A stretch of 23,357 bases of DNA from a virus, in IMG/VR virus record IMGVR_UViG_3300022858_000434, positions 1 to 23,357 of that record; one strand, given 5' to 3'. The notes under the pieces were generated by a model, which saw nothing but the letters and a program-made list of their open reading frames with translations, had not been told where the DNA came from and made no database searches. Below, in pieces: positions 1 through 23,357 of the stretch; within the stretch, counting starts at the first letter, position 1, and each line of letters begins with the position of its first letter. Both the position numbers and the translations under genes were made by a program.

Positions 1-1
1 G

Positions 2-1480: not shown

Positions 1481-1839
1481 TGCAAAGTGGTTTTGAGTGG
1501 AAAGTACCGCCGGAGAAAGCGTTTCCAGAACTGGCGGATGCATACGCAACGGCAATCCATCGGGGCATCTACGCAATTGCCCAACGCTACGCGCCGCTCA
1601 TCAAGAACTGGATGAAGGACAACGCACCCTGGACTGACCGGACGGCCAACGCCAGGCAGACACTTTGGACTGAGGCAAACGAGGTCGTGGGCCAGATGGT
1701 ACAGATTATCCTCAGTCACGGAATGTACTATGGTATCTATCTCGAACTGAACAACGCCGGACGGTATGCCATAATTGATCCGGCCCTAGACCATTTTGCG
1801 CCGCTAATTTGGAGGGATGTACAGAGGATGCTATCGTGA
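1480..1839 (+). CDS. HK97 gp10-like tail completion protein
   Basis: A 119-residue protein that starts at an ATG sharing a base with the preceding stop (TAATG at 1478). Residues around 40-60 contain the NAPWTDRTANARQTL segment, typical of the HK97-gp10 or putative tail-component family ('aPvdTG.Lr.si' region). A short beta segment with YYGIYLELNNAGRYA follows, the 'Y..yvE.Gt' motif of the same family. These proteins sit at the head-tail interface and are needed to join tails to filled heads. Position and both motifs agree, so this is the firmest call among the four small connector genes. Confidence 0.65.
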   Translation: MQSGFEWKVPPEKAFPELADAYATAIHRGIYAIAQRYAPLIKNWMKDNAPWTDRTANARQTLWTEANEVVGQMVQIILSHGMYYGIYLELNNAGRYAIIDPALDHFAPLIWRDVQRMLS

Positions 1840-2279
1840 GCACAGTTAGCGCGGCAAAGGCGGTCTTGGAAGCGGACGCCACGCTGGTTGCACTGGCGAC
1901 GGGTGGCATCTACGATTACGCCGAGACCGGCCCGGATGGAATCAGCCGAACCGCTACGCCGTCCGCTTTTGATAGCAACGAGATAATCAGGCCGTGTATC
2001 TTGCTCAAATCTCGCGGCGCTACACCGGACGGCGCACTGACCGACGAGGGCACGCAATATCTGAGCGTGCGCGAGCCGCTAGAGGCTTGGTTTTACGAGG
2101 ACACCGGCTACAGCAACATCGAGGCGATGCGCAACCGCGTGTATACGTTATTGCACGCGCAACAACTGACCGACACGTTCAAGGTCCTGTGGGCTGGTGA
2201 CGTGCGCACACAACGCGACACCAGCCTGGACGCAAACGTAGAACGTTCTGAATTTGCAGTTCACACATTCAAGAGTTAG
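1836..2279 (+). CDS. Putative tail terminator protein
   Basis: The chosen start is GTG at 1836, which overlaps the previous stop (GTGA) and has AGAGGA about ten bases upstream. An in-frame ATG at 1809 would run deep into the previous gene. This gives about 147 residues. The protein begins with a helix (SAAKAVLEADATLVALA), then GGIYDYAE, the opening of tail-terminator-like proteins (lambda gpU or SPP1 gp17 class, DUF3168-like), in which a hexamer caps the finished tail tube. Its place directly before the major tail protein fits that role. There is no catalytic motif. Confidence 0.5.
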   Translation: MSTVSAAKAVLEADATLVALATGGIYDYAETGPDGISRTATPSAFDSNEIIRPCILLKSRGATPDGALTDEGTQYLSVREPLEAWFYEDTGYSNIEAMRNRVYTLLHAQQLTDTFKVLWAGDVRTQRDTSLDANVERSEFAVHTFKS

Positions 2280-2298
2280 ATAGTAGGAGGATATAACG

Positions 2299-2853
2299 AT
2301 GGCATTCGATACTTTTGGAGCACCGCAATTTGGTTTGGAGGACGTCAAGATTGCTACCTGGAATTCCACCGATAGTTACGGCACGGCGGTGGACGTTCCG
2401 AGCGTCCAGTTGATGGGGACGGTGATGCAGACCGTCTCGGCGCAACTCGAAGGCGATGACAAGATCACCGATAGCCACGCGCAGATCATCGGCGGTCAGG
2501 TTCGCCTGCGCTTTGGCTCGGTCAGTATGGCGGCGCTTGAAGTGCTGCTCGGACTGACATCTACCGCCAGCGATTCAGACCAGGATCATTTAAAGATGAC
2601 CGGCGGCGACGACATGCCATACTTTGGCATTTGCGGCAAAATGTCGGCCACCCAGGGCGACGGCGACCTGCACGTGTTCCTTCCGATGGTCAAGATTATG
2701 GAGGATGTGACGCTGGCCCAGGCCGAGTATGGGCAGTACCTTATCCCGGAGGTTGCGGGCCAGGCGGTGGATGATACCACGTACGGCGTCATCAACCTGA
2801 TTGAGCACGCCGCCGATACTGCCATTTCGATCCCGCCGTCCAACATCAGCTAA
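2299..2853 (+). CDS. Major tail protein (tail tube)
   Basis: A 184-residue protein with one of the strongest ribosome sites in the late operon (AGGAGG, eight bases before the ATG), as expected for an abundant structural protein. Its 5' gap of about 20 bases is the first real gap in the operon. The sequence is acidic and beta-rich, with FGLEDVKIATW near the N-terminus and a repeated pattern of strands, as in siphovirus tube proteins that stack as hexamers around the tape measure. Order is the main evidence: after the terminator and before the tail assembly chaperones and tape measure. Its stop shares a base with the next ATG (TAATG). Confidence 0.7.
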   Translation: MAFDTFGAPQFGLEDVKIATWNSTDSYGTAVDVPSVQLMGTVMQTVSAQLEGDDKITDSHAQIIGGQVRLRFGSVSMAALEVLLGLTSTASDSDQDHLKMTGGDDMPYFGICGKMSATQGDGDLHVFLPMVKIMEDVTLAQAEYGQYLIPEVAGQAVDDTTYGVINLIEHAADTAISIPPSNIS

Positions 2854-3320
2854 TGGACAAGCAACCAGTCACCAGCGCGGCTGAGTGGCGAGAGCCGCGA
2901 GAGAAGGGATTTGTTGTCAATCTTCCGTCCGGCAATGCGGCGCGTATACGCCCCGTTGCCCTGGACGTGATGATTCGGGACGGGAGCTTGCCTGACTTAC
3001 TCTCTCCCATTGCCGCTAAAGCACTCTGGACAGAGACGGACGTCGAACAGATTGGCGAGATTGCGGAACTGGCAACGGGAATGGCTGAACTGTTCGGCCA
3101 GGTCTGCAAGGCCGCTTTTATGGAGCCGCGTGTCGTGGAGAATGTAGAGGATTTGGGCGAAGGCGAAATAGCCTTGTCAGACGTGGCTTTTGATGACAAG
3201 GCTTTCGTCTTTCAGTTGGCAATCCAGCCGGCCCAAATCCTCCGCAAGTTTTGTGAGCAACAAGCGCGAGCTATGGAATCTCCACGCGCTGGCGACAGCG
3301 ACGCACCAGAGGCCGAGTGA
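2853..3320 (+). CDS. Tail assembly chaperone, upstream frame (gpG-like)
   Basis: A 155-residue acidic protein between the major tail protein and the tape measure, the invariant place of the lambda gpG-type chaperone. It starts at the ATG overlapping the major tail protein stop. The C-terminal part (QPAQILRKFCEQQ) is helical. The last roughly 15 residues after that are low-complexity and acidic, as if read beyond a conserved junction. A second open frame overlaps it by up to 149 bases and continues to the tape measure (see next entry), so this product is probably made alone and also as a longer fusion. These chaperones coat the tape measure during tail polymerisation and are absent from the virion. 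Confidence 0.7.
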   Translation: MDKQPVTSAAEWREPREKGFVVNLPSGNAARIRPVALDVMIRDGSLPDLLSPIAAKALWTETDVEQIGEIAELATGMAELFGQVCKAAFMEPRVVENVEDLGEGEIALSDVAFDDKAFVFQLAIQPAQILRKFCEQQARAMESPRAGDSDAPEAE

Positions 3321-3573
3321 CATCGTAGGGATTGACGACCGCTGGGCCGCGTATCAGTTCGACGCCGCTACGTGTCTGGTGGGAACAACGGTCGAGAACG
3401 CGCTGCAAGAGACCTACGAGACAGGCGGCAAACTAACACCGCGCTACACACTGACACAACTCCTGGATGCTGGTTTTCGCTTGCCGCCACCGGCAGGCAG
3501 TGGCAGTGCAGTCAAGGCTCTTAAAAAGATGGCGGCTAAAGACAATGCCGTCAGATACCACAAGGTAAAATGA
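3190..3573 (+). CDS. Tail assembly chaperone, downstream frame (gpT-like extension)
   Basis: The frame opens after a TAG at 3169-3171 and ends at 3573, overlapping the tape measure ATG (ATGA). It is offset from the upstream chaperone so that a +1 (equivalently -2) shift would join them. Conserved-looking content starts at about 3253 (a GTG; residues SNKRELWNLHALATATHQ, then RPSDIVGIDD and FDAA), which matches the second chaperone ORF of many siphoviruses. The region just before it looks like shadow sequence. Either a programmed shift near 3253-3275 makes a G-T fusion, or translation starts at the GTG. I see no classic slippery heptamer and no good Shine-Dalgarno for the GTG, so the mechanism is open. 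The listed left end is the first possible start codon, not a proven one. Confidence 0.6.
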   Translation: MMTRLSSFSWQSSRPKSSASFVSNKRELWNLHALATATHQRPSDIVGIDDRWAAYQFDAATCLVGTTVENALQETYETGGKLTPRYTLTQLLDAGFRLPPPAGSGSAVKALKKMAAKDNAVRYHKVK

Positions 3574-6056
3574 TGCCAACTCAACTGGCGCTTCCAGGAA
3601 TGGCGGGCGGATTGGGGCACGCGCACGGTGTTGTCTCTATAGACACTTCGTCCGCGACGGCCGCCGCCGTGACGCTCCGGCGCGTTGGGCAGGATATGGG
3701 CAAGGCGTTCAAGCCTGTCCAGACTACAATCACCAGGCTGCGCGGCGACCTGCGTATGATGAGCCGCGAGATCGCCGCGATTGGCGCGGGCGCTACTATC
3801 ACAGCCGTGTTGGGCCTGAACGCCGCTCGCGACGTGCGTAACTATCGCATTCAGTTCAGAGCGTTGCTCAAAGATGAGCAAGAGGCCGAGCGCGTGATGC
3901 GCAGCCTCACCGACCAGGCCAACCGGTTCGGAATTGAGGTTAACGAGGTCTGGCAGTTGGGGCGCTCCCTCATCCCCGTGCTAGAGGACGGCGCAGCCTC
4001 CCTCGATGATTGGGTAGTACGCGCCGCCCTACTCGCCTCGACCAATCCCCTGAAAGGCACGACCGACGCTGTCCGTGCTATCCAGGAATACCTGGCTGGT
4101 CAGACCATCTCTCTGCAACGGCTGTTCAATATCGATCCGAACATGATAGCCGACGCCCAAGCGCAATTCGAGGACGTGGGAGAGCAACTTGACTTTATCC
4201 TATCCAAGATGGGCGCGAATGAGGACGCAGCGGCGGCGATGGCCAACGAGTGGGTATCGCTCAGGAACGAGTTAAAGTTGGCCCTGGCTACCGGCTTCAC
4301 CCCGCTAATGGAAACCCTCGCGCCTATCGTTCGGCAATTCACCGAGCTACTATCTAGCCTCCGCGAGACTAACCCAGAGATTTTGGCGCTTGGCGCTGGG
4401 CTGATCTCTATCGTGGCAGTGGGCGCGCCATTGCTCGTGTTTCTCGGCAAGGTGATTGATTCTCTCCAGACGATCAAGGCTCTCTCGATTGCCGGATCGC
4501 TTGGCAGGGCGGGCGTCTATGGCGCGGCAATTGCGGCGGGCACGGCGGCCGGTGTCGGGGCAACACGCGCAATCGGGAGCGCGACAGGCGACGAACGCTT
4601 GCAGAAATATGGGCTAAAAGATGTAATCGAGACCATCAAAAAGGCTATTTTCATCGCCGTGGATATGTTGACGAAAGCGGAGACGTTATGGGTGTCAATA
4701 GTGTCAAAGGCGGTCGCCGGTATAGTCAAGGCATTCGCGTTCGCTACGGACGCCCTCGGCCAGTTCGCCAGCTATTTGGGTGATAAATTGCATATCGAGA
4801 GCTTGCAGGAGGCGGGCGACAACATAAGCGCATTTGCCGACAGGTTACGAACTGCCACGGATGAAAAGCTGGAAGAGTTCGTAGCGGGCGGCGTTGAGAG
4901 CCAGCGGCTACTAATGGAAAAGATCGCGCAATTCTTGTTCCCATCCGAGGCGGTGGCAGGCGGGGCAGGGGGTGGCGCTGGTGGGCTACCGCCTGGCGGG
5001 GCTGGTGACGCCGTATCCGAGGCGGCATTGGCGGTATTCGCAGAATACCAAGAGGAGCGTGTCGCTATCGAAGAGGAAACCGAGAGGCGGCGTAACGAAA
5101 TCATAGCGGCGGCGGCAAGCGAACGTGAAAGCCTGGAAGCACGGATACTAGAGGCAGAGATTGAGTTCGGGAAACAGGAAACACGCTACGAAGAGGAATA
5201 CTACCGCAACCGCACCGCCCGCGCCGAGGCCGCCGGTAAGGAAATGGCCCGCGCCGAGGCCGACCACCAACGCAATATGCGCCGGATGAGAGAGGACAGT
5301 CTAGCGCGCCAGGATACAATGATCGGGGCGCGTGACGCCCTGGGCCTACGCCGTGAACGGCGCAGCTACGAGGTAGAGCGCCAGCGCGCGGAGGAAGATC
5401 AAGCCGTCAAAATGTCACGCCGCAACGAGAGCTTTGCCCTCGAGATGGCACAGGCAGAGGTACATTTCCAAATCCAACGCGCACGCCGCGAGCAGGATTT
5501 CACCGCGCGACAAGCCAAGTTGAGCGAAGAACTGGCGACGGTGAACACACGCCGCGATGAAGAGTTGGAATTGCTCAAGACCGTGACCGAGACGCAGTTG
5601 GACAACCTGGAACGCGCCACGCTAGAACGCATCGGCACAATAGACGCTACGCTGGTAGCAGGGATGAACGTCATCACCCAGAGCGCGACCACGACCGGCG
5701 AGATGCTGGCCTGGCTAGAACAACAGCGACAGGCGCTGGCGAGCGGAATCAGTGGCAGGCGCGGCGGCACCGGCCCCATTCCAGGCTACGCGAGTGGCGG
5801 ATACGCGAGCGGCATCATCCGCACCGGCGAGCAGGGCCGCGAGTTCGTACTGGACGCTCAAACCACCCGCGCGGCGGAGCGGGCGTTGGGCGCGCGGCTC
5901 ACACAACAGAACGTGCTAGGCGCGCAACGGGGCGGCCAGTTGGGGATACACCAAAACTTTACCTTCCGCGGGGATATGAGCGCGGGTATGCGCCAGTGGT
6001 ACAGACGCACGGCCAGAGAGGAAGCGCAGGCGGCCTTCCAGGGAGTGATGGGATAA
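3570..6056 (+). CDS. Tail tape measure protein
   Basis: An 828-residue protein, the longest of the tail core. From N- to C-terminus it has an alpha-helical region, and then a hydrophobic stretch at about 267-292 (EILALGAGLISIVAVGAPLL). An Ala/Gly-rich segment follows near 310-330, with a Gly-rich linker at about 467-480. A long charged coiled coil spans about 490-690, rich in E, R and A. The C-terminal domain carries GYASGGYASG and GEQGREFVL, a common tape-measure ending. The family sets tail length at roughly 0.15 nm per residue, which would predict a tail of about 120 nm (inference). It also helps DNA cross the membrane, which fits the hydrophobic segment. Start ATG overlaps the chaperone stop; its own stop shares a base with the next ATG. 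Confidence 0.92.
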   Translation: MMPTQLALPGMAGGLGHAHGVVSIDTSSATAAAVTLRRVGQDMGKAFKPVQTTITRLRGDLRMMSREIAAIGAGATITAVLGLNAARDVRNYRIQFRALLKDEQEAERVMRSLTDQANRFGIEVNEVWQLGRSLIPVLEDGAASLDDWVVRAALLASTNPLKGTTDAVRAIQEYLAGQTISLQRLFNIDPNMIADAQAQFEDVGEQLDFILSKMGANEDAAAAMANEWVSLRNELKLALATGFTPLMETLAPIVRQFTELLSSLRETNPEILALGAGLISIVAVGAPLLVFLGKVIDSLQTIKALSIAGSLGRAGVYGAAIAAGTAAGVGATRAIGSATGDERLQKYGLKDVIETIKKAIFIAVDMLTKAETLWVSIVSKAVAGIVKAFAFATDALGQFASYLGDKLHIESLQEAGDNISAFADRLRTATDEKLEEFVAGGVESQRLLMEKIAQFLFPSEAVAGGAGGGAGGLPPGGAGDAVSEAALAVFAEYQEERVAIEEETERRRNEIIAAAASERESLEARILEAEIEFGKQETRYEEEYYRNRTARAEAAGKEMARAEADHQRNMRRMREDSLARQDTMIGARDALGLRRERRSYEVERQRAEEDQAVKMSRRNESFALEMAQAEVHFQIQRARREQDFTARQAKLSEELATVNTRRDEELELLKTVTETQLDNLERATLERIGTIDATLVAGMNVITQSATTTGEMLAWLEQQRQALASGISGRRGGTGPIPGYASGGYASGIIRTGEQGREFVLDAQTTRAAERALGARLTQQNVLGAQRGGQLGIHQNFTFRGDMSAGMRQWYRRTAREEAQAAFQGVMG

Positions 6057-6433
6057 TGGCCTACGAAATTGGCGCAACCTACGTAGGAATGAAGGAGTTG
6101 TCCGACCTGACCGTCCCTGTGCCGGATCCAAAATCGGACTTTCAGGATTATAGCCAGTACATCACGCTTGGCAATAACAAGGTGCGCGGGGCGGGCGTAG
6201 CGATAGGCGAGTGGCGTTGGACGTATTTGGAGCGCACAACACGAGACCAGCTAAAGACTTTCTGTACCGCCGCCAGCGCGGATGTGTACATTAAGACCCG
6301 CAAGAACGATAATGAGGACGCCTACCAACTTTACACCGCTACAATGATCTGGCCGATGGATGAGGAAAAGAGTTTCAGCCGCCGAATGGACTTTGTAATT
6401 AAGTTTACGAATGCGGAGGAGTATACCCCGTGA
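6056..6433 (+). CDS. Distal tail / minor tail protein
   Basis: A 125-residue protein starting at the ATG that overlaps the tape measure stop (TAATG); an upstream in-frame start would lie inside the tape measure. The body is beta-rich, with GEWRWTYLERTTRDQLKTF, then a VYIKTR strand and a final strand SRRMDFVIKF. This is the layout of short distal-tail or minor tail proteins that link tube and baseplate. No specific residues can be named. The position directly after the tape measure and before the large tail-tip proteins is the main support. Confidence 0.6.
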   Translation: MAYEIGATYVGMKELSDLTVPVPDPKSDFQDYSQYITLGNNKVRGAGVAIGEWRWTYLERTTRDQLKTFCTAASADVYIKTRKNDNEDAYQLYTATMIWPMDEEKSFSRRMDFVIKFTNAEEYTP

Positions 6434-6633
6434 CGAATAGCCCGAACCTGCCGCCGGAAAAACTGATCAAGATGCACGACAGGATGTTTTTGGAGACTGT
6501 GCGTGCGGCAATACTAGACAAATTAAACGAAGAGACACGCGCAAACTACGCCGTAGAGGGATGGGTACAACTCCCCGACGGCGATTGGGTGATTCAATTG
6601 AAGCGAACACTAGATAGCTACGATACTGATTAA
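6430..6633 (+). CDS. Small tail-region protein, unknown function
   Basis: A 67-residue protein with a GTG start overlapping the previous stop (GTGA), so it is translationally coupled. It has an N-terminal amphipathic helix (PPEKLIKMHDRMFLETVRAAI) and a short beta C-terminus with GWVQLPDGDWVI. No family is recognised. Its place between the distal tail protein and the large tail-tip protein suggests a virion or tail-assembly role. Confidence 0.6.
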   Translation: MTNSPNLPPEKLIKMHDRMFLETVRAAILDKLNEETRANYAVEGWVQLPDGDWVIQLKRTLDSYDTD

Positions 6634-6635
6634 AT

Positions 6636-9600
6636 ATGGCGCGCATCATCACCGCTCCCGAACTTGCACACCTGCGCAGCGACGGCCAACGCTGCGAATT
6701 ATTTTTAGCCGTCCATACCCCTGCATCAGTATTCACGGCAAGGCTCAAGGGTGCGCCAGCCTCGACGGATGGGGTTTACGAGATTGATTTTGACGGCGGC
6801 TCGGCTGGCTTTGCCGATTGCATAGCGGGGCAGACCGTCTACATCGGAAGCACGGCGGGCGCGTATGACGTGGGAATGGCTCGTCTGCGCGGTGCGGTCG
6901 GCGGCGTCTCCGGTACGATGGAAATTGGCGAGGCCAGCGAAATAGACTGGACGGACAACGATTACATCACGGTGGTTGATGAGTTTGCGCTTTGGCCGCG
7001 CCACCTGCGGATCGACGGTGGCGGCACTGTCTACGTGGATTATGACGTGTCCTACACCGACCAACACGAGGTTTGCGACCCCGTGCCGGTGCTTGGGCCT
7101 CCGGCTGTAAAGTGGCTGACCGGCGCGACGGTTGACGTTGAATTTGACGCCTCGGACTCGTGGGTGTCCGGCTCTACCATCTCCGCCTATTCCTGGACTG
7201 CCACGGGCGCGAGCGCCACGAGTGGGATGGCGACCGCGACGCCTACTATCACCTACGACACGGCGGGCACGTATCGCGTTTCCTGTTTGGTGACTGCAAC
7301 GAACGGGGCAACATTCACCGGCTACCGATACGTATTTGTCTACGACACGAACAGCCAACCAGCAACTATATTTCGCCTGGATGATTGTTCCGGTGACTGG
7401 CAATCTGGCGGCTGGCGATACCGCGTCACCATGTGGGATGAGGCTCTACGCTCAGAGATCAGAGACCGCGCCCAGGTCATCTTGTTCGCCCGCGACTGGT
7501 ACGGGGACACCGAAACCAGCATCGGGCCGGTGGACGACCGCGAGAACGTCGTGGCTGTGGGCTGGATTGCAGACGAGAGTATCAAATGGAATCCCCGACA
7601 GGGCATAGTGTCATTTGATATACAAAGCCCACAGTTCTGGATGGGCAAGATGACCGGCTTCCCCACCGGCGTTGAGGATTACGACGGCACGCCTACTTCC
7701 TGGATCGAGTTCGAGGATTTGACGGTTGACAAAGGGCTTTGGCATTTCTTACACTGGCGCACCACCGCCACGCTGTGTATGGATGTGACACTCACAAGTG
7801 ACACGCGCCAGATCAAAGTCTTTGACTCGCCTGCCAGTAGCCTGTGGGCACAGATAACACAGGAGAGCAAGCGTACCATTCTGGCCCACCCCGCTTGTGA
7901 TCGCTATGGACGGTTGTTTGTGGAGATTGACCAAAACCTTATACCGGTGGCAGATCGAGGCGCTATACCGATTGTACAAACTCTGGCCACACAGGATTGG
8001 CGGGAGCAAATCGGCATAGAGCGTAAAACGGTTGATGAGATTGCCTTGCTCGACCTGTCCGGCGTGGCTTATGCCGGCGGCAGCGGCACGCCTTATTTCT
8101 CACTTTCACCGGGGCACGTGTTCAGGCGGTACGGTAGCATCCAGCGCAAGGAGCGGCTGGCGCTCAACGACCAGGCGGATACCAATACCCTAACCGGCCT
8201 ACTTGCTGGCAAGGCCAACAACGAGTACCCTAACCTCGACATTTCGCTGGCGAGCAATCACCGGATGCTCGACATTTGCCCGCAGCAATATCTGAGGCTA
8301 ACCATAGCGGAGGGTGATACCGAGCGCGGCATCTCGTTCACCAACCTTGATTTTATCCCGCGCCGCGTATCGTTCCGACATGATCCCGACACGGGCGTAA
8401 TGCTGACAGACGTCACGGTTGAGGCTTACACCACGCCAGAGCTTGCCGTCACAGGCGACCCGCCTCCTGCCCCACCCGATCCAGCCGATCCAGAGCTTCC
8501 GCCTGTACCAATCATTCCGCCCGTGCCCCCGCTGTGGACAGGGCCGGTCAAGGCGGCATTCGCCCACACGCAGACAGATTTTGGCTATACCGCCGACTTG
8601 CTCCTGCGCCACGTGGACAGCACGGCGACGGCGGGCACCGCCGGCACTGACCTATACGACACCTCAATTGACGACCATCCAGGTGAGGATTTTGACGACA
8701 TCGGAGTAGCGGTCGGTGATCACGTCGAGAATTTGACCACTCACGAAGGCACGACGGTTGCGGTCGCGGTTAGCGGCTCTCAATTGACCCTGACGGCTGA
8801 CATTGGCCTGGGCAACGGTGATGCTTACGCAATCGCCGGTACGCACTGGGTAGATGCAAGCGGGGGAGATTTTAACCCTGGTGTAGCCGAGGAAATAATC
8901 CAGTTCGTGTACATCCGCACCGGTGCGGCCACCGTTGGCGGTTGGGTGCTGACCGACGCAGCCGCCTATTATGCGGCTAACGTGTTGACGTCCTCTCCGA
9001 GTTGGAGTAACAAGTTGACGCTGGCGGCGGCGCGTGTTCTATGCGGCGGCACAGCGACCTTTGCCGCACTCGCGGTGGATGCTAATAATCCATTGTTTGC
9101 AATTGTGTCGATGGATGACGTTGATGCTGGTGCCTTAAATAGTGCGAAGGGTAGCTGTGTCACTGGTGACACAGGCGAGAATTGGTCAGTCGGTTTGTAC
9201 GAGAGTCCAGACAAAGTAAATCACCTGGTTCTAGCTGGCAGGACAGGATGGCGGGCACTAGCAGTTGATAATAATGACAGCACAATTTATGCTATACGGG
9301 GATTCCCGTGGCCTTGGACCAATCCAAAAGCTAGAAAAGCGATGTGGGTATCGACTAATGGTGGTGTGAGCTTTACCACACCAAAAACTAATATCAGTAC
9401 TACACAAACTGGCAGAGTCTTTATTCTGGCACGTGGCGGAACTGTTTTTGTGGTTCCGCGGAATCCGTGGTATGGATATGACCCTGGCGCTGCAATTGCT
9501 AATCCGCTCAAAACTGGCGATGGCGGCGGCACCTTTGCATCTGTGTCCCCAGTGGGATATACAGATTTTGGTATTGCCAACCCAATCGGGCATTATGACG

Positions 9601-9977
9601 ATGCAGACGACCTGGTCTGTTTATTTGATAGAACCACAGATGGAAAAACAGTTATCTCTCGTAGCTCCGATGGTGGCGGCACATTCACGGTCATTACAGA
9701 CGATATAGATGTGATCATTGACGAAAATATAGAGACTCGCACGCCAGTGTTGCCTGCTGGCTGGCCGTGGCCGCCCGACTCGGATATTTTGGGAATGATC
9801 AATGCCATCCCTTCTGCGGTTGGCGCTCTCCGCAAGATTTTCTATTCTGATGATAATGGCGTTACTTTTTTCAATAAGACCACCGATTTTGTAGCCTCGG
9901 TTGGCGGCTGGGATTGGGGCCATAACGGCGAGAGGTGCGGATTTATGCCGCTCCCGCGCGTGGGGGCAAACGAATGA
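6636..9977 (+). CDS. Tail-tip protein with PKD domain and Asp-box beta-propeller-like C-terminus
   Basis: A 1113-residue protein. Residues about 1-145 look like a baseplate or hub region. Residues about 149-236 form an immunoglobulin-like PKD domain with the YDTAGTYRVSC strand and an AYSWTATG turn. Residues about 240-600 are hub-like (FARDWYGDTETSIG, DIQSPQFW). A proline-rich linker lies near 609-638. The C-terminal third carries several Asp-box (BNR) units: STNGGVSFTT near 905, GDGGGTFASV, SSDGGGTFTV near 1010 and YSDDNGVTFF near 1070. Asp-boxes mark beta-propellers of sialidase-like folds, often carbohydrate-binding. Inference: host receptor binding or surface glycan recognition. No Arg triad could be assigned, so sialidase activity is not claimed. 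There is no clear Shine-Dalgarno; the start lies two bases after the previous stop. By eye, the Asp-box part is richer in A+T than its flanks. Confidence 0.8.
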   Translation: MARIITAPELAHLRSDGQRCELFLAVHTPASVFTARLKGAPASTDGVYEIDFDGGSAGFADCIAGQTVYIGSTAGAYDVGMARLRGAVGGVSGTMEIGEASEIDWTDNDYITVVDEFALWPRHLRIDGGGTVYVDYDVSYTDQHEVCDPVPVLGPPAVKWLTGATVDVEFDASDSWVSGSTISAYSWTATGASATSGMATATPTITYDTAGTYRVSCLVTATNGATFTGYRYVFVYDTNSQPATIFRLDDCSGDWQSGGWRYRVTMWDEALRSEIRDRAQVILFARDWYGDTETSIGPVDDRENVVAVGWIADESIKWNPRQGIVSFDIQSPQFWMGKMTGFPTGVEDYDGTPTSWIEFEDLTVDKGLWHFLHWRTTATLCMDVTLTSDTRQIKVFDSPASSLWAQITQESKRTILAHPACDRYGRLFVEIDQNLIPVADRGAIPIVQTLATQDWREQIGIERKTVDEIALLDLSGVAYAGGSGTPYFSLSPGHVFRRYGSIQRKERLALNDQADTNTLTGLLAGKANNEYPNLDISLASNHRMLDICPQQYLRLTIAEGDTERGISFTNLDFIPRRVSFRHDPDTGVMLTDVTVEAYTTPELAVTGDPPPAPPDPADPELPPVPIIPPVPPLWTGPVKAAFAHTQTDFGYTADLLLRHVDSTATAGTAGTDLYDTSIDDHPGEDFDDIGVAVGDHVENLTTHEGTTVAVAVSGSQLTLTADIGLGNGDAYAIAGTHWVDASGGDFNPGVAEEIIQFVYIRTGAATVGGWVLTDAAAYYAANVLTSSPSWSNKLTLAAARVLCGGTATFAALAVDANNPLFAIVSMDDVDAGALNSAKGSCVTGDTGENWSVGLYESPDKVNHLVLAGRTGWRALAVDNNDSTIYAIRGFPWPWTNPKARKAMWVSTNGGVSFTTPKTNISTTQTGRVFILARGGTVFVVPRNPWYGYDPGAAIANPLKTGDGGGTFASVSPVGYTDFGIANPIGHYDDADDLVCLFDRTTDGKTVISRSSDGGGTFTVITDDIDVIIDENIETRTPVLPAGWPWPPDSDILGMINAIPSAVGALRKIFYSDDNGVTFFNKTTDFVASVGGWDWGHNGERCGFMPLPRVGANE

Positions 9978-13718: not shown

Positions 13719-14390
13719 CTACCAGTAGTAACCGCGCATCCTCCGCGCTAGTTCTCTGGTCATCTCAACGTCGTTAGCGCAGTAACGCGCGCGGGTATCG
13801 GCGTCCATCTCCGCAACCTGGCTACCGTCCAAGTCAGGAAGCGGGTTCGGGATACCATACATCTCAGCTACCGCTTTCAGGCCACGGTAACGCGGGCCTG
13901 GTGCTTTGCCCCAGTGGTATAGGAGTTGCATCAGGTCAATTACGTGGTCAGTGCTATAGCGGCGCAAGTCCAGATTGTGGGACGGCATCACGCCCAGCGC
14001 CCACGACCGGCGCAGGATGATGGGCAGGTCATAGTCCAGGACATTGTAGCCACACACGCGCCTGCCTCCTGCAGCATCCCAAAAGGCGCGCAGTACATCG
14101 CGCTCGTCGTCATCCGAGGTCGCACCTGGTACAAGTATCGGGCCGTCGTCAACCGCATATCCAAGCGAGACAATGCGAGCAAAGTCCACGTCGAGGCTCA
14201 TCTTGGCAAGCCGCGCCTGGTAGTCCTCCTGGCGCTTGACGGCCTCGCTGATCATCCAGCGTTGGATAGCCTCGTCCTTTTTGTAATTGCGCGGGGCCTC
14301 GGATGCGGTTGGCGCAACAGGAGCGGGTACGAATTGCTCCATAATGCCGTTCGGTATGGTCTCTATGTCAACATACAGGATGTTACTCAT
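13719..14390 (-). CDS. DEDD-family 3'-5' exonuclease (PolB-exonuclease-like)
   Basis: The start is ATG at 14390, preceded by GGAGGGGA and overlapping the recombinase stop by eight bases; an upstream in-frame ATG at 14429 is less likely. The protein has 223 residues. The three exonuclease motifs are complete. ExoI is YVDIET, with Asp8 and Glu10. ExoII is GYNVLDYDLPII, with Asp121. ExoIII is YCANDVEM, with Tyr203 and Asp207, giving DEDDy type. The layout resembles the predicted 3'-5' exonuclease family related to the DNA polymerase B proofreading domain, without a polymerase. The enzyme would remove nucleotides from 3' ends with two metal ions. Coupling to the RecT-like gene suggests it makes or trims the DNA ends that the annealing protein uses (inference). 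Confidence 0.85.
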   Translation of the reverse strand: MSNILYVDIETIPNGIMEQFVPAPVAPTASEAPRNYKKDEAIQRWMISEAVKRQEDYQARLAKMSLDVDFARIVSLGYAVDDGPILVPGATSDDDERDVLRAFWDAAGGRRVCGYNVLDYDLPIILRRSWALGVMPSHNLDLRRYSTDHVIDLMQLLYHWGKAPGPRYRGLKAVAEMYGIPNPLPDLDGSQVAEMDADTRARYCANDVEMTRELARRMRGYYW

Positions 14391-15474
14391 CGCTCCCCTC
14401 CTCCGGTATCTCGTTCTCCGCCTGTGCAACCAGCGGAGACAGGATATCTATTGCCTCCGCAAAGGCGGCTTTGCTATCCCCGTCGGCGGCGTCGTATTCG
14501 ATTCCAAGCGCGGCGGCCTTTTCGCGCAAGGCATCCCACTGGGCAATGACCTCCTCGCGGGTGAGCGGGGTGGGCGTCTCTGCAACCAAGAGCGTCTGGC
14601 AGTGAGCCAAGATTTTACTCATCTTGGCGGTCGGCTCTTCCAGGCCTGCGATCTGGTCTACCATGTCGCGCCAGTCGTCGGGCGACTTGCTACCCAACTC
14701 CGCGCCACTATCCAGGACGTAGCAGGTGGCATTGGCGATACGGGCCGCCTGGCCGGTGTCTGAGCCAGCGGTGCGCGCCTCGCGGTAGGCCTCGAAGCGG
14801 GCCAGAACTGCGGGCTGGTCGGTAGCGTCCAGGTCGGTGAATTTCGCCATAGTGCTGGCGAAACTGTAAGCGTTTTTGGTCAAGCCTGCCGCGGTGACTG
14901 CTTTCTCGACGTCGGAAAGGGAAGCGGTGGGCGGGCTGGTAGGTGGCTCTACGATCTCGTAACTGCCTGGGATAAACTCGCCGTCGCCGTCCACTTCCGC
15001 GCCCAGTTCGTCAGGCGTGTAGACAGGTGCGCCACTCATCACATCGGGGCAATGCCACCGCACGCCGTTACTGAGCGCGCGGGCAAAGAGCATATTGCGC
15101 GGGAATTTGTTCATATTCTGCGTCCCGGCCTTTACCGCGTCCGCCTTTGTGAAGGTGGATCGCCCTGCCTCTTTTCCACCCTCGAAAAAGACCAGTTCGC
15201 AAACTTCATCCGTCAACCGCTCAACTCGATAGTTATACCGCGAATCGCGTTTGACGGCGGCGGCCATTAGGTTAGCCGATAGCGACGGCTTGCCCTTCAC
15301 GATGTAGATGCCGGTCATACTGGCAATCGGCCCGAATCCTAGTTCGCGCCCGGCCAACACTTTGACAATGGCCTTGTTCGCATCTTTAGCGTCTGCGAAA
15401 AAACCCGACTTTGCTAGCACTTGCCCCAATGCACTGAGGGGCATTTCGTCCCTGATCGTTAAAGCGTTACTCAT
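14383..15474 (-). CDS. recT: RecT-family single-strand annealing recombinase
   Basis: A 363-residue protein. The start ATG at 15474 has AAGGAGATG upstream. The N-terminal 210 residues carry the RecT/Redbeta-like core. One conserved part is FFADAKDANKAIVKVLAGRE, then GFGPIASMTGIYIVKGKPSL and SANLMAAAVKR. The closing block is MLFARALSNGVRWHCPDV, with a GAPVYTPDELG end. The C-terminal part is variable and may contact partner proteins. The family anneals complementary single strands in phage recombination and replication. It normally works with a 5'-3' exonuclease; here the coupled neighbour is a DEDD 3'-5' exonuclease, which is unusual. No RecE, lambda Exo or SSB is seen in the window. Confidence 0.88.
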   Translation of the reverse strand: MSNALTIRDEMPLSALGQVLAKSGFFADAKDANKAIVKVLAGRELGFGPIASMTGIYIVKGKPSLSANLMAAAVKRDSRYNYRVERLTDEVCELVFFEGGKEAGRSTFTKADAVKAGTQNMNKFPRNMLFARALSNGVRWHCPDVMSGAPVYTPDELGAEVDGDGEFIPGSYEIVEPPTSPPTASLSDVEKAVTAAGLTKNAYSFASTMAKFTDLDATDQPAVLARFEAYREARTAGSDTGQAARIANATCYVLDSGAELGSKSPDDWRDMVDQIAGLEEPTAKMSKILAHCQTLLVAETPTPLTREEVIAQWDALREKAAALGIEYDAADGDSKAAFAEAIDILSPLVAQAENEIPEEGSDE

Positions 15475-17998: not shown

Positions 17999-18171
17999 CT
18001 CTCCTCCACTATCCGCAGCGCATTACGCGAGATGCACTCCCGCTGCCCATTCTCAAACTCCACCACGGCGCTGTTGAAGGCAAGCCGCGCAATGACACGG
18101 CAGTGACGGCCTTTTAAAATGGCGCGCTTGGAATTGTTGCCCCAGGCGTAGCGGTAGGGGTAATAGGTCAT
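17995..18171 (-). CDS. Small basic protein (58 residues), unknown
   Basis: Start chosen at ATG 18171, in the ATGA overlap with the DUF5131 gene and preceded by GGGGGAT; a longer reading from 18198 runs inside that gene. The protein begins MTYYPYRYAWGNNSKRAI and reads as a small beta barrel (HCRVIARLAFNSAVVEFENG), ending in IVEER. The last codons double as the ribosome site of the next gene. No family is recognised. Confidence 0.6.
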   Translation of the reverse strand: MTYYPYRYAWGNNSKRAILKGRHCRVIARLAFNSAVVEFENGQRECISRNALRIVEER

Positions 18172-19001
18172 TTGTATCCCCCCGGCATCTCGTTCCATTC
18201 ACGGCCATCAATCTGGCGTGTCCCATTCGTATTCTTTTTGAGGAAAAATGGCACGCCTGCCTCCACGCACTGGTTACGCAAGCCCCTGGCGCGTGGCTCA
18301 AATTCTTGAATCCCCCGTGCCCCTGGGCCAGTTTCAGGGCCGCAGATGACCCAATCGAGACTTGGCCCAGGCTCTCCCATCAATTCGCTGCCAATGTCGC
18401 GGCTTTCCATCCAAGCTACATCGCCGGTAAGTGCATCAATGCAATAGTCGCTGTCTGATATTCCGCGCAGGTTCACCGGCTCCAGCATCGGCTCCACGCT
18501 CACAAACCTGACTGCCGCCGGGGTCTCTAACAGAATCGGGATGCGCTTGTCGGCCTGCTCTTGGTTCTCAGCAGTGACGCCAAGCCAGACATTAGTAAGA
18601 TACTGATCCATTTTATCCCAATTTCTTTTGATATAACGCTGCATACGTTCGGGGCGCTTGGTCAGCACCTGAAAAGTATGCGTTCTCGCCTTTTCCATTA
18701 CTTCAAAAACGTGCGTAATGTAACTGCTAGGCACATCCTCGTGAAACAGGTCCCCCATGCTCACCACGAACACCATCTTGGGCTTTCTCCACTTCAACGG
18801 TTGCCCCAGCCTGTCAGGCCGCAACGTCACATCAAAGTGATTTGGCGCAGCTGGGTAGCCATAGCGCCCCGCCAATCGCCGCGCCATTCTCTCGGCGTAG
18901 CAATGAGCACAGTCTGCACTGATCTTGGTACAGCCAGTCACGGGATTCCAGGTTTTGCCCTTTGTACCATCTGAGTTCCGTACCCATTCTATTTTAGTCA
19001 T
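18168..19001 (-). CDS. Phage Gp37/Gp68 family protein (DUF5131), radical-SAM-like
   Basis: A 277-residue protein, usual length for the family. The N-terminus has IEWVRNSDGTKGKTWNPVTG, a family opening. A Cys cluster C24-x6-C31-x2-C34 follows (GCTKISADCAHCYAERMA). Then come VVSMGDLFHEDVP, the VLTKRPERM motif, WLGVTAENQEQAD, FVSVEPMLEP, and WVICGPETGP near the C-terminus. The fold is a TIM barrel related to radical-SAM proteins with an unusual three-Cys spacing. The biochemical role is not established. The gene recurs in phage early regions and beside restriction or modification genes. It overlaps both neighbours by ATGA, so it is co-translated with the methyltransferase group. Confidence 0.85.
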   Translation of the reverse strand: MTKIEWVRNSDGTKGKTWNPVTGCTKISADCAHCYAERMARRLAGRYGYPAAPNHFDVTLRPDRLGQPLKWRKPKMVFVVSMGDLFHEDVPSSYITHVFEVMEKARTHTFQVLTKRPERMQRYIKRNWDKMDQYLTNVWLGVTAENQEQADKRIPILLETPAAVRFVSVEPMLEPVNLRGISDSDYCIDALTGDVAWMESRDIGSELMGEPGPSLDWVICGPETGPGARGIQEFEPRARGLRNQCVEAGVPFFLKKNTNGTRQIDGREWNEMPGGYK

Positions 19002-19217: not shown

Positions 19218-19424
19218 TTACTCCTCCTCCACAATCTCAGCCCCGACAATGCGCCGAAGCTCTTTTCCGTGCGTAACCCAGTCCAGGTTGCCCAATTGCG
19301 TAGCGACCACTTCCATATAGATGATGCCCGTCTCCGTGATCGCCAGTATCACGCCTCGGTACCGCGCCCCTGCCTCTGAGCGGACGGTGTGGCGCGTGCC
19401 GGCGTGGGCGGAGGTGGGGGTCAT
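19218..19424 (-). CDS. Small beta-rich protein (68 residues), unknown
   Basis: ATG at 19424 overlaps the methyltransferase stop as ATGA. The sequence MTPTSAHAGTRHTVRSEAG, then YRGVILAITETGIIYMEVV, reads as a five-strand barrel with a C-terminal tail ending IVEEE. It is one of three consecutive small proteins sharing that tail because the codons serve as the next gene's ribosome site. No function is assigned. Confidence 0.55.
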   Translation of the reverse strand: MTPTSAHAGTRHTVRSEAGARYRGVILAITETGIIYMEVVATQLGNLDWVTHGKELRRIVGAEIVEEE

Positions 19425-21178
19425 TGGTCAAGCCTCAATACTAGCTGCTTCGGTATCCGTTGCGCCGCGATTTCGCAGTATTCCTCTACGGTATCAATCC
19501 CGATGGCTTGTCGGCCCTCCTGGAAGGCTGCCACCAGCGTTGAGCCGCTGCCCATAAACGGATCGAGAACTATACCGCCTGTGGGGGTGCGGGTAAGGCG
19601 GCAGAGGTAACGCATCAGGGCCAGGGGTTTCACGGTTGGATGTCCTGGTATCCTGTTACATTCTTGTTCTAGCCTTTCGAGCACGCTTTTTATCAACGAC
19701 GATTCTGATGTGGCACTTTCGGCATCGTCCGTAGAGAGGCCATCCTTCTTTGGAGAAGTACCAGTGATCTGTGGTGATTGGCTTGAATTCTCCGCAGACG
19801 TGGCAAGGCTTCCACCAGACGCCATCGCGCAACTCACACCCGCTGTGGATTCGCTTGTGTTCCAAGAATGTAACAAGCTGCAAATTTTCGAGGCGGTTGT
19901 CTTGTTTGTCGCCGTTGATGTGGTGTAGAGTAAAGCCTTTAGGAACCGGCCCATTGGCCTCCTCCCATTCATACACATGAGCAAACACAAGTCGGCTACT
20001 TTTGGTGGTAGAATCCCAAAGGCAGATACGATGATACCCCGCTTTTGTTGTATATCCCCTTCCGCTTGGATGCTTTGACTTAGGCCCAGATTTTCCCACG
20101 TTGAAACCTCCCTTTCGTTTAATGGTATGGTTTCATTATAGTATACTTGTTCTGTGCTGTCAAGCCCCTCCAACCCCGCGTTCCTCTCCGCCCGCGATGC
20201 CTTTGCACAGTAAAAGAAGCGGGAGGCGGAGCCAGAGTCAGCATAACCTATATCCTTTGTATCAGCCTCTCGTGCTCCATAGATTGCATTTTTACTGTGT
20301 CCTTGCCGATTCCTTCCAGTATACGCACCAGCGTTGCCCAGGCCAGGAAACAACCCCACCACTTCATCGCTGCCGTCGTGGATGACATTGGCGGGCCAGC
20401 GGCCCAGTCTATCTGACGGATTAGGCATCGCTTTCTTGATCGGATCTGACCTATCTCGCAAAGCTCCCCGCGCTTCTGAATCAGCAGCCTTTTCCATATT
20501 CGGCGTGAAGCCATAATCTCGGCGTTTAGCTGTCGGATTCTCCCCATTCGTCTCCACCCTTCCCCCATCCACCCACAAGCCCGCCACCCCGTGCTCGAGC
20601 GCGTTAGCTGCAAACGTCCCGTCAGGCGGTTTCATTGCCAGGATGATCGGCTCCCAGGCAGGCTTGAGCGCAGTGCCCCATCCGTCCCAGGTGCGGGCGG
20701 CGTCGGTGGCGGGGGCAGTGATGTCGCCCGTTTGTCCACAGTGCGCTGCATAGGTATTGTTTGCGTCATTGTCGCGCCTGTATCGCGCAACGTCGTTCCC
20801 CACAATCTCCCTTTCCGCCCCCGCTGCCTTGTCAATCGCCTTACTGATGTCGTGGCTCTTCGGAAATCCGCTGGCATATATCCACATCACCACGTCCCTG
20901 ATCTCCCACCCCGCGTCCTCAATCGCACACATCAATCTATGATGCGTCCGTGTCCCTCCAAAAGCCAAGAGCATCGCCCCTGGCTTTGCCACCTTCAACG
21001 CTGCCTCCCAGAACGCCACCCCTGGCACGCCGCGATCCCAGTCCTTGCCCATAAACTTTAACCCATAGGGTGGGTCTGTGATGACGGTATCCACGCTGGC
21101 GGCGTCCATCTCTGCCATCACGTCCAGGCAATCCCCGTGATAAATTGCAATTCCGCCTCTCTCATAATACGGTTGCAC
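19421..21178 (-). CDS. Site-specific DNA methyltransferase (N4/N6, beta class) interrupted by an HNH cassette
   Basis: A 585-codon frame from a GTG at 21178 with GGAGG upstream. Motif IV is DPPYG at residues 35-39. Motif I is DPFMGSG at 539-545, with GHPTVKPLALMRYL just before it. The motif order IV then I marks the beta class, which methylates the amino group of adenine or cytosine. Phage relatives run NAGLEGL ... HPTVKP with a short loop between. Here about 161 extra codons (residues 345-505) lie in that loop, bounded by an AGAACAAG direct repeat. They coincide with an HNH gene in another frame. Without the insert the protein would be 424 residues, a normal size. The insert in this frame is Ser/Thr-rich. 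Whether the interrupted enzyme is active is unknown. It probably protects phage DNA from host restriction. Confidence 0.85.
   Translation of the reverse strand: MQPYYERGGIAIYHGDCLDVMAEMDAASVDTVITDPPYGLKFMGKDWDRGVPGVAFWEAALKVAKPGAMLLAFGGTRTHHRLMCAIEDAGWEIRDVVMWIYASGFPKSHDISKAIDKAAGAEREIVGNDVARYRRDNDANNTYAAHCGQTGDITAPATDAARTWDGWGTALKPAWEPIILAMKPPDGTFAANALEHGVAGLWVDGGRVETNGENPTAKRRDYGFTPNMEKAADSEARGALRDRSDPIKKAMPNPSDRLGRWPANVIHDGSDEVVGLFPGLGNAGAYTGRNRQGHSKNAIYGAREADTKDIGYADSGSASRFFYCAKASRAERNAGLEGLDSTEQVYYNETIPLNEREVSTWENLGLSQSIQAEGDIQQKRGIIVSAFGILPPKVADLCLLMCMNGRRPMGRFLKALLYTTSTATNKTTASKICSLLHSWNTSESTAGVSCAMASGGSLATSAENSSQSPQITGTSPKKDGLSTDDAESATSESSLIKSVLERLEQECNRIPGHPTVKPLALMRYLCRLTRTPTGGIVLDPFMGSGSTLVAAFQEGRQAIGIDTVEEYCEIAAQRIPKQLVLRLDQ
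19656..20099 (-). CDS. HNH homing endonuclease nested in the methyltransferase gene
   Basis: A 147-residue protein with a GTG start at 20099 and AAAGGGAGG seven to eight bases upstream, so it is translated on its own. It lies in a different frame from the host gene on the same strand. The HNH core is at about 57-85: LHHINGDKQDNRLENLQLVT, with HH at 59-60, Asn68 and Asn72, and later His81 and His85. A C-terminal zinc ribbon follows, CHVC (Cys99, Cys102) and CRKC (Cys126, Cys129). This is the layout of phage HNH_3-type homing enzymes. Its last codons (aga-aca-aga-atg-taa) include the downstream copy of the 8-bp repeat. The stop codon therefore seems to be supplied by methyltransferase sequence. 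Confidence 0.88.
   Translation of the reverse strand: MGKSGPKSKHPSGRGYTTKAGYHRICLWDSTTKSSRLVFAHVYEWEEANGPVPKGFTLHHINGDKQDNRLENLQLVTFLEHKRIHSGCELRDGVWWKPCHVCGEFKPITTDHWYFSKEGWPLYGRCRKCHIRIVVDKKRARKARTRM
19663..19670 (-). repeat. 8-bp direct repeat AGAACAAG, downstream copy
   Basis: Read leftward it is AGAACAAG, identical to 20146-20153 and 483 bases (161 codons) away. Both copies encode E-Q in the methyltransferase frame. Together they mark the probable ends of the HNH cassette. Confidence 0.7.
20135..20163 (-). promoter_or_regulatory. Perfect consensus sigma70-type promoter for the HNH gene
   Basis: Read leftward: TTGACA (20163-20158), a 17-base spacer, then TATAAT (20140-20135), both hexamers perfect. 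The HNH GTG is about 35 bases further on, with a strong ribosome site between. The -35 lies in methyltransferase codons (GLDS) outside the cassette and the -10 inside it; one copy of the 8-bp repeat falls in the spacer. Confidence 0.85.
20146..20153 (-). repeat. 8-bp direct repeat AGAACAAG, upstream copy
   Basis: Upstream boundary copy of the HNH cassette, identical to 19663-19670; it lies inside the promoter spacer. Confidence 0.7.
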
Positions 21179-21195: not shown

Positions 21196-22137
21196 TCATC
21201 CTCCAATCTGGTCCGCAGCTTGCGCTCTCTCTTCTTTGAGCCTTTTCATTGCGGCGAGCGCAATCCGTTGCTGTTCTCGTATCACAGGATCAACGCTTTC
21301 TGCCTGCGGCTTTTTGCGCATAGATGGATCCGCTTGCACTATCCGCTTTTGCAGACCGCCATTGCTGAAAGCGTCCAGCATCCCTGAAACGTTGGTCGGA
21401 TTGTATCCCCGGCCCACCCATTCCAGGACAAGCGCGCCCCACCGTTCCAGGTTGTCAGAATCTTCCCCGACCGCCTCACCCACTCGCGTATACCACGCCT
21501 TCGGCGGGTAGCGGTGGGCATTCTCTCGGAATACCTGGACGGCTTTCGGCACAGGGGCTTTCGGTTTAGCCTTGCGTTTCCGGGGTTTTGGAGGGGCAGG
21601 TGGAGGTTCGGGGGTCGGGGAGGGTGGTTTCGCCGCGGAAGCGGCGCAATCTTCTTTTGTACTTAACTTAACTTTAACTTTACCTTCTCCTTCTGCTGGC
21701 TTTTTGGCGGCATCTTGCGGGCTATCATCCTGCAACTTGCCGCCATCCTGCGGGCTTTCGCTGTCCTCTGGCGGGGCTTCTGGCTCTGACCATCCAGGGG
21801 GCGGCGGGTATTCTGTGCGTTCCCGTTCGGCCCGTAGCCCTATCTGGTTGTGTGCAAAGCCTGGCCAGGATTGCCAAAGTTCTCCGCGCACCTCGAAAAC
21901 TTCAATCAGGCCGGCCTCTTGCATTGCGTCCAGATAGCGCGCCACGTCATCTATGGTGATGTCTGTGCGCCTGGGAAAAACCATAGACTTGACGACGGCT
22001 GGATCGGCATAGAACACACCGCGATAGTCTAGCTGCGAGATAATCCAAGTTGCCAGGAGGCGACAAGTGTCATCTGGCAGGTCGTGAAACTTTAACGAAA
22101 GTGAAACTGTCTTGTTGAGCATTCTACCGCGTGCCAT
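21196..22137 (-). CDS. Replication initiation / replisome organiser-like protein
   Basis: A 313-residue protein. ATG at 22137 has GGGAGG seven bases upstream. Residues 1-110 form a winged-helix-type domain. It opens MARGRMLNKTVSLSLKFHDL and continues with CRLLATWIISQLDYRG, DITIDDVARYLDAMQEAGLI and SWPGFAHNQIG. That is the N-terminus common to phage replication proteins of the lambda O or DnaD-like type. A Pro/Glu/Lys linker (about 110-190) leads to a helical C-terminal domain (WYTRVGEAVGEDSDNLERWG, then VSGMLDAFSNGG) expected to bind helicase or loader. Inference: it binds an origin nearby; the large inverted repeat just upstream is a candidate target or leader. Confidence 0.75.
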   Translation of the reverse strand: MARGRMLNKTVSLSLKFHDLPDDTCRLLATWIISQLDYRGVFYADPAVVKSMVFPRRTDITIDDVARYLDAMQEAGLIEVFEVRGELWQSWPGFAHNQIGLRAERERTEYPPPPGWSEPEAPPEDSESPQDGGKLQDDSPQDAAKKPAEGEGKVKVKLSTKEDCAASAAKPPSPTPEPPPAPPKPRKRKAKPKAPVPKAVQVFRENAHRYPPKAWYTRVGEAVGEDSDNLERWGALVLEWVGRGYNPTNVSGMLDAFSNGGLQKRIVQADPSMRKKPQAESVDPVIREQQRIALAAMKRLKEERAQAADQIGG

Positions 22138-22354: not shown

Positions 22355-22555
22355 TCAACCGCACTTCCCGCAGTATGCACCGTCAGCCACATATTGCCCC
22401 GTTGTACCGATATAGCCGCGCTCGTGGATGATCTCCACGAACGGGTGGCTCTCTGGATATAATGCCCAGAGCGACAACCTGAGCCAGCACGTGTCGGCTC
22501 TCCTGTCTAGCAGTGTCGCTATTTGCCAGCGTAGCCATTTGCATAGACTTGTCAT
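22355..22555 (-). CDS. Small phage protein (66 residues), unknown
   Basis: ATG at 22555, with GAGAGGGAGGG seven bases upstream. It begins MTSLCKWLRWQIATLLDRRA, an amphipathic Trp- and Arg-rich helix, and ends with CGKCG, a possible half zinc site. Between them is HPFVEIIHERGYIGTTGQYV. The strong site and close packing with the next gene upstream support coding. The function is not recognised; a short host-takeover peptide is one possibility. Confidence 0.55.
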   Translation of the reverse strand: MTSLCKWLRWQIATLLDRRADTCWLRLSLWALYPESHPFVEIIHERGYIGTTGQYVADGAYCGKCG

Positions 22556-22559
22556 AATC

Positions 22560-22579
22560 CCTCCCTCTCGTTGTCAAGT
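22560..22579 (-). repeat. 20-bp direct repeat in gene leader, copy A
   Basis: CCTCCCTCTCGTTGTCAAGT on the + strand, identical to 22767-22786 at a distance of 207 bases. Read leftward it contains a stop (TGA) and the ribosome site GAGAGGGAGG of the gene starting at 22555. Confidence 0.85.
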
Positions 22580-22762
22580 ACGCCGTTGGCCTGGGCTGTA
22601 CTCCCACCGCCACCAGCCGAACAACCGCTTTAACACCCACCCGCGCACGTGCCAGAACAAGCGGCGGAGCGGGGGGATTGGTAGACCTGGATCGCTGGCG
22701 CAATAACTGTCACCGTGTCCTTTACACCAAAGTTCAAATACCCAAGTTGGTTTAGCTGACAT
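22574..22762 (-). CDS. Small Trp/Cys-containing basic protein (62 residues), unknown
   Basis: Start chosen at the second ATG of ATGATG (22762), with GAGGGAGG at better spacing. It reads MSAKPTWVFELWCKGHGDSY, then PLRRLFWHVRGWVLKRLFGW, an aromatic and basic amphipathic helix, and a polar end. It could touch membrane or nucleic acid, but nothing is recognised. Its leader repeats in front of the next gene, which suggests duplication of a gene-start cassette. Confidence 0.5.
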   Translation of the reverse strand: MSAKPTWVFELWCKGHGDSYCASDPGLPIPPLRRLFWHVRGWVLKRLFGWWRWEYSPGQRRT

Positions 22763-22766
22763 CATT

Positions 22767-22786
22767 CCTCCCTCTCGTTGTCAAGT
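22767..22786 (-). repeat. 20-bp direct repeat in gene leader, copy B
   Basis: Identical to 22560-22579. It forms the ribosome site of the gene starting at 22762 and follows the end of the 22791-22976 gene. Confidence 0.85.
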
Positions 22787-22790
22787 CTTA

Positions 22791-22976
22791 TTACGACAAC
22801 CCTGCTCGCTCAGTGTTTCTGCGAGCCTGGATGAGACTTGCCGCTGCTTTTTTAACCAAGTCCTGGAACTCAAATATATGACTGTTAGAGCACCCATATT
22901 CATCGACGCGGGCGTCCGCATCTTCCACAACCTGCGGCAGCAATTCCAACATACGCAAAACTTCATTCTCTGTCAT
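22791..22976 (-). CDS. Small acidic helical protein (61 residues), first early gene seen
   Basis: ATG at 22976 with AGGAGG six bases upstream. It begins MTENEVLRMLELLPQVVEDA and continues with HIFEFQDLVKKAAASLIQAR: acidic, mostly helical, no membrane span. An alternative frame over the same bases lacks a ribosome site. It lies just after the tRNA-like sequence, so it may be the first gene of the leftward operon. No family is recognised. Confidence 0.6.
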   Translation of the reverse strand: MTENEVLRMLELLPQVVEDADARVDEYGCSNSHIFEFQDLVKKAAASLIQARRNTERAGLS

Positions 22977-23021
22977 AATTCCTCCTATTGATCTTCTAGC
23001 ACGGGGCTGAGTTGTTAAGAA

Positions 23022-23094
23022 AGCTCCGCCTGGGATCGAACCAGGAACTATAGACTACCGGAGCAGCCTATAGCGGATCCATCTTCTCGGAGCT
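23022..23094 (-). tRNA. tRNA-like sequence, degenerate D arm (possible tRNA pseudogene or attachment site)
   Basis: 73 bases with a perfect 7-bp acceptor stem (AGCTCCG / CGGAGCT) and a perfect T arm (CCTGG-TTCGATC-CCAGG). The middle folds as a long hairpin: CTATAG pairs with CTATAG and continues through G-U pairs to a six-base CTCCGG loop instead of a normal seven-base loop. A D stem of at most two pairs forms. A CCG (Arg) anticodon can be read but is not reliable. No CCA is encoded. It may be a divergent phage tRNA, a decayed tRNA or the remnant of an integration site. Confidence 0.5.
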
Positions 23095-23191: not shown

Positions 23192-23357
23192 CCAATCCCC
23201 TACGCGTGTGTGGGGTGCACCGCTGGGGCGCTTCCCCTGGCGCGTTTGTCAGCCAATCCCCTACGCGTGTGTGGGGTGCACACCATCCGGCGTAAGTCGC
23301 GTAGAATTGCTTGCCCAATCCCCTACGCGTGTGTGGGGTGCACACCATCCGGCGTAA
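23192..23357 (-). CRISPR. CRISPR array, type I-E-like repeats, running off the window
   Basis: Three identical 29-bp repeats at 23192-23220, 23253-23281 and 23315-23343. Spacers are 32 bases (23221-23252) and 33 bases (23282-23314), and a partial third starts at 23344. Read on the - strand the repeat starts GTGCACCCC and has GGGGATTGG at its end, like type I-E repeats (GTGttCCCC...GGGGATgaacCG), and the 61-62 bp period fits. By that homology the array is transcribed leftward and the window shows its leader-distal end. The 97 bases before it (23095-23191) lack an A+T-rich leader. No cas gene is in the window. Confidence 0.9.

Follow-up and report, generated by a model that had tools for sequence, protein, structure and literature searches.

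The virus record IMGVR_UViG_3300022858_000434 of IMG/VR ends in a CRISPR array that is situated next to phage early genes, and the question is to whom this array belongs: to the phage itself, which would then have to borrow the Cas proteins of its host, or to a host chromosome that became joined to the phage by integration or by faulty assembly. The window considered in the following is the whole record (23,357 nt, classed as linear). Its array is compared with that of a distant relative, the 68,190-nt viral contig IMGVR_UViG_3300010413_000023 (hereafter L021). The features of the window on which the argument rests are, with the basis of each call in parentheses:

6636..9977, plus strand: tail protein, with relatives that include Virus Rctr41k and L021 (sequence matches)
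14383..15474, minus strand: RecT-like single-strand annealing protein, which led to L021 (phrog_561, E 2e-22)
21196..22137, minus strand: replication initiation-like protein (phrog_1408, E 4e-9)
22791..22976, minus strand: nearest early ORF, 61 aa, with an AGGAGG ribosome-binding-like site upstream (ORF list)
23022..23094, minus strand: 73-nt tRNA-like element (fold z = -4.1 versus shuffles)
23192..23220, minus strand: CRISPR repeat 1, probably leader-distal, in crRNA sense GTGCACCCCACACACGCGTAGGGGATTGG (exact repeat)
23221..23252, minus strand: spacer 1, 32 nt, without target match (array layout and spacer searches)
23253..23281, minus strand: CRISPR repeat 2 (exact repeat)
23282..23314, minus strand: spacer 2, 33 nt, without target match (array layout and spacer searches)
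23315..23343, minus strand: CRISPR repeat 3 (exact repeat)
23344..23357, minus strand: start of a repeated spacer 2 (14 nt), from either a duplicated spacer or an assembly loop (43-nt duplication)

The array is a real CRISPR array, in which identical repeats are regularly spaced and separated by unrelated spacers of uniform length. The 29-nt repeat (CCAATCCCCTACGCGTGTGTGGGGTGCAC) occurs in three exact copies with a start-to-start spacing of 61 and 62 nt, and the next best match elsewhere in the window has 11 mismatches. Left of 23192 no further degenerate repeats are found above the level of shuffles. The initial annotation had placed a CRISPR array at 23192-23357, with the same spacer bounds as obtained here and at about 215 bases from the first early gene; the distance between the ORF start at 22976 and the first repeat is 216 nt. 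The final 14 nt are the same as those with which spacer 2 begins, and the record stops there, hence its end consists of an exact 43-nt duplication (23253-23295 = 23315-23357) that is either a real duplicated spacer-repeat unit or a loop at which the assembler stopped. With the record breaking off inside this repeated spacer 2, the array is truncated, and its full length is not given by the record; the two distinct spacers are those visible in an array cut by the contig end.

By its 29/32-nt layout and the stem-loop of its repeat the array would be type I-E-like. The sizes agree with type I-E (a repeat of ~29 nt with a hairpin, a spacer of ~32 nt), and the predicted hairpin (CCCCAC/GU-bulge-GGGG, -7.6 kcal/mol) is not better than those of shuffles. 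Scans of most ORFs of the record with PHROGs, Pfam and PADLOC gave no match to cas genes, and Cas6e (PF08798) and Cas1 (PF01867) are absent from both the window record and L021 in searches that detected their positive controls. The array was originally described as type I-E-like and as having no cas genes beside it: the latter is borne out, and the former agrees with the sizes and the stem-loop. The genes associated with type I-E (Cas8e, Cse2, Cas7e, Cas5e, Cas6e) do not accompany the array within the record, which is uninformative on the host because the contig ends in the array.

The genes to the left of the array are those of a phage. On the plus strand a glycosyltransferase is followed, from left to right, by tail genes (major tail protein, tail assembly chaperone, large tail protein, tail fibre). 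The early genes on the minus strand encode an exonuclease, RecT, a DUF5131 protein, a DNA methyltransferase with an embedded HNH gene, the replication initiation-like protein and three small proteins of no assigned function. No close relatives were found for the replication initiation-like protein, and none at all for the 61-aa ORF. Within the record, the array is flanked by phage genes on its left side only. Several further observations concern this early region. The DUF5131 protein (18168-19001, minus strand; PF07505, E 5e-76) also matches the PADLOC candidate defence models PDC-M41B and PDC-M30B. The methyltransferase ORF (19421-21178, minus strand) contains an in-frame insert at ~19645-20173 (residues ~336-512) that is missing in a relative (L072) and that encodes, in another frame, an HNH_3 endonuclease at 19656-20099; Rfam gave no intron match at the insert, which may be an intron that escaped detection or the gene of a homing endonuclease. 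Upstream of the small early genes, a 30-nt block recurs around the ribosome-binding site and start codon (22550-22579, 22757-22786 and 22971-23000), with 90% identity between the first two copies and 67% for the third.

Between the early genes and the array lies the 73-nt element that had been described as a tRNA-like sequence. By eye, it combines a 7-bp acceptor-like stem (AGCUCCG/CGGAGCU) with a T-arm-like CCUGG-UUCGAUC-CCAGG; an 11-12-bp hairpin with a UCCG loop replaces the anticodon arm, a proper D-arm is absent, and the predicted minimum-energy fold leaves the T-arm unformed. The description holds insofar as the fold is real by comparison with shuffles, but we reject the element as a tRNA, as it is called neither by ARAGORN nor by the Rfam tRNA model. 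Its 3' side faces the phage genes.

Relatives of the phage were found via two of its proteins. Relatives of the tail protein occur in 12 viral contigs, in none of which the early proteins of the window were found. A search profile built from the RecT of the window and a cyanophage RecT retrieved 80 contigs. Two of the 12 contigs with the tail protein, L003 (metagenome 3300031227) and L004 (metagenome 3300005915), are 98.3-98.4% identical in nucleotide sequence to positions 1-8653 and 1-8373 of the window, respectively, which places the same phage species in at least two other samples. Both stop at these positions, short of the right end of the window. L004 reaches 2.3 kb further to the left, into apparent capsid genes.

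Evidence on this question comes from L021, whose source metagenome is MaiPo-9, from Mai Po wetland sediment (PMC6461988). The identity between the proteins of L021 and the window is 63% for RecT, 30% for the tail protein and 27% for the tail fibre. L021 contains an array of five repeats (locus 5577-5851; repeats at 5577, 5639, 5701, 5762 and 5823) with a period of 61-62 nt and four spacers; three of the repeats are identical (CCAATCCCCCACGCGCATGTGGGTTCAAC) and two are degenerate. The L021 repeat matches the window repeat at 23 of 29 positions, and none of 200,000 shuffles reaches 22 of 29. The array is located ~40.0-40.3 kb into the contig, near its middle. One flank is occupied by a phage protein of 173 aa (phrog_20637) and by homologues of the tail genes of the window; the other begins with a gene for a TnpB transposase and includes those for RecT, a DnaD-like replication protein, DnaB, a primase and, further on, the terminase. 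With phage genes on both sides, this array is in a phage.

The two arrays share a related repeat, the 61-62-nt period, the absence of Cas1 and Cas6e, and a setting in genomes with RecT and tail genes. They differ in that the L021 array is complete, internal and placed between tail and early genes beside TnpB, whereas the window array lies upstream of the early operon; their spacers are unrelated. The different positions speak for recurrence or mobility rather than simple inheritance of a locus. L021 is the single supporting case, as the repeat family was found in none of the records of 49 other relatives. Two other candidates from the array scan were judged by eye not to be CRISPR: the copies in L075 are unevenly spaced, and L037 contains a short tandem repeat. 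In L021 we also note a degenerate inverted copy of the repeat at 5875-5901, between the array and the TnpB end, for which none of 1000 shuffles gives as good an alignment; together with the last repeat it folds into a long hairpin (z = -3.7) that may represent a leader-repeat hairpin or belong to an IS605-type end.

Because the genome of L021 has an internal array without cas genes, the most likely reading is that the array of the window is likewise carried by the phage and relies on Cas proteins of the host. We consider this reading probable. It was one of two possibilities raised by the initial annotation, and it gains from the internal array of L021, which is flanked on either side by phage genes and for which no Cas1 or Cas6e was found, but is weakened by the fact that the window array touches the contig end and has no phage gene to its right. 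It is also weakened by having L021 as its single supporting case and by the negative outcome of the searches for a host and for spacer targets described below.

The same position at the contig end speaks for the other possibility raised, namely a phage integrated beside a host array. In this reading the prophage would adjoin a CRISPR array of the host or interrupt it, the tRNA-like element would serve as attachment site, and the sequence to the right of ~23095 would be host DNA. The element indeed separates the phage genes from the array, and its orientation corresponds to the usual geometry of integration into the 3' end of a tRNA gene, where the 3' side of the tRNA is towards the phage. Against a prophage junction, the 23 kb contain no recognised integrase, the surroundings of the junction included, no host gene is located within the window, and an element that neither ARAGORN nor the Rfam model calls is not an intact host tRNA gene. 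As, moreover, a related phage has such an array inside its genome, we judge integration beside a host array to be less likely and give it a minor though appreciable chance. A false join of the phage to a host array by the assembler, somewhere between 22980 and 23190, appears improbable. The exact 43-nt terminal duplication indicates that the assembler was in trouble at this end, which has no independent confirmation from L003 and L004; however, the interval shows no repeated sequence that could have led to such a join, the GC content of the last kilobase (58%) is like that of the remainder (51-63%), and, given L021, an array carried by a phage is plausible a priori.

It is also conceivable that the array is of the phage, yet serves as a decoy: the repeats would act as an RNA anti-CRISPR (Racr) that soaks up Cas6/Cas7 of the host, and the spacers would be irrelevant. 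Phage-borne repeat units are known to inhibit host CRISPR systems (PMC10651486), no spacer targets were found, and the array adjoins small early genes of no assigned function, a setting in which anti-CRISPR genes occur. Racrs and the array have in common that CRISPR repeats are encoded by a phage without cas genes. Racrs are, however, defined as solitary repeat units, a single repeat without neighbours, and SRUFinder discards arrays (PMC10651486), whereas the window has three repeats in a regular array. From at least three intact, identical and regularly spaced repeats, with spacers of the usual length, normal crRNAs would be expected, and a decoy function is therefore very improbable.

The direction in which the array is transcribed can be proposed from the repeats. 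In normal arrays, degenerate repeats are found at the leader-distal end. The degenerate repeats of L021 are located at the low-coordinate end of its array, which implies the same reading direction as assumed for the array of the window. In the sense of the transcript, the repeat would accordingly read GTTGAACCC...GGGGATTGG in L021 and GTGCACCCC...GGGGATTGG in the window, the latter corresponding to the minus strand and pointing into the early genes. With this orientation the leader would sit beyond the contig end. Between the array and the early genes no promoter was seen, except for a weak match inside the first ORF. We propose that a leader or promoter beyond the contig end would drive transcription of the array on the minus strand, that a Cas6e-like protein of the host would cut the transcript into crRNAs, and that a type I-E-like Cascade/Cas3 of the host would use these crRNAs, the most plausible targets being competing phages or other mobile elements.

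The searches for a host and for targets covered several collections. Exact cores of the repeat have no matches in viral and genome collections, and there is no real match of the repeat in plasmids and phages. Two-copy patterns of degenerate repeats gave no hits; such patterns would also miss the repeat of L021 and hence do not speak against hosts with a related repeat. In these narrow scans, two of which covered genome contigs, no host with the same repeat or a compatible cas system was found. A comparison of the spacers with virus databases, as suggested at the outset, matched no target for either of them: spacer seeds with every sixth base left free have no hits in viral contigs, and INPHARED contains short matches at chance level only, as is also the case for two spacers of L021. 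Against the window and all fetched relatives, the spacers of the window have at least 11 mismatches and those of L021 at least 9, which corresponds to chance level. Environmental spacers are commonly without a database match.

To our knowledge, cas-less arrays in tailed phages of bacteria are uncommon, and few are known together with their setting. The occurrence of related repeats in two distantly related phages suggests that such arrays recur in the group, and the repeat, in the sense given above, and the two spacers provide handles for finding the host and rival phages. A more far-reaching and rather doubtful proposal is that a loose lineage of phages from anoxic waters and sediments retains cas-less I-E-like arrays that exceed the usual one or two spacers, and that the array of the window is transcribed into the early operon, with the tRNA-like element as a processing site.

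With respect to known systems, the array resembles bacterial type I-E arrays in its 29-nt repeat with a CCCC...GGGG stem and its 32-nt spacers. The type I-E repeat of E. coli terminates in ACCG; compared with it, the stem-loop of the window repeat is shifted and its end is ATTGG. Among viruses, cas-less mini-arrays that work with the Cas proteins of the host are established and are aimed at related viruses (PMC6858448, PMC7099407, PMC11656645). The array of the window agrees with these mini-arrays in that no cas genes are found in the virus, here in a record that is a fragment. The closest counterparts are the arrays of SPV1 and SPV2 (Sulfolobales) and the mini-arrays of phages and prophages (Faure et al. 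2019, cited in PMC7099407), which consist of an intergenic cas-less array in a virus, with a repeat of standard type and few distinct spacers; the array of the window, if phage-borne, would share these features. In those cases the repeats are those of the host and most spacers target related viruses, neither of which was found for the array of the window. The mini-arrays have one or two spacers each, in contrast to the four spacers of L021 and to the array of the window, which is cut off.
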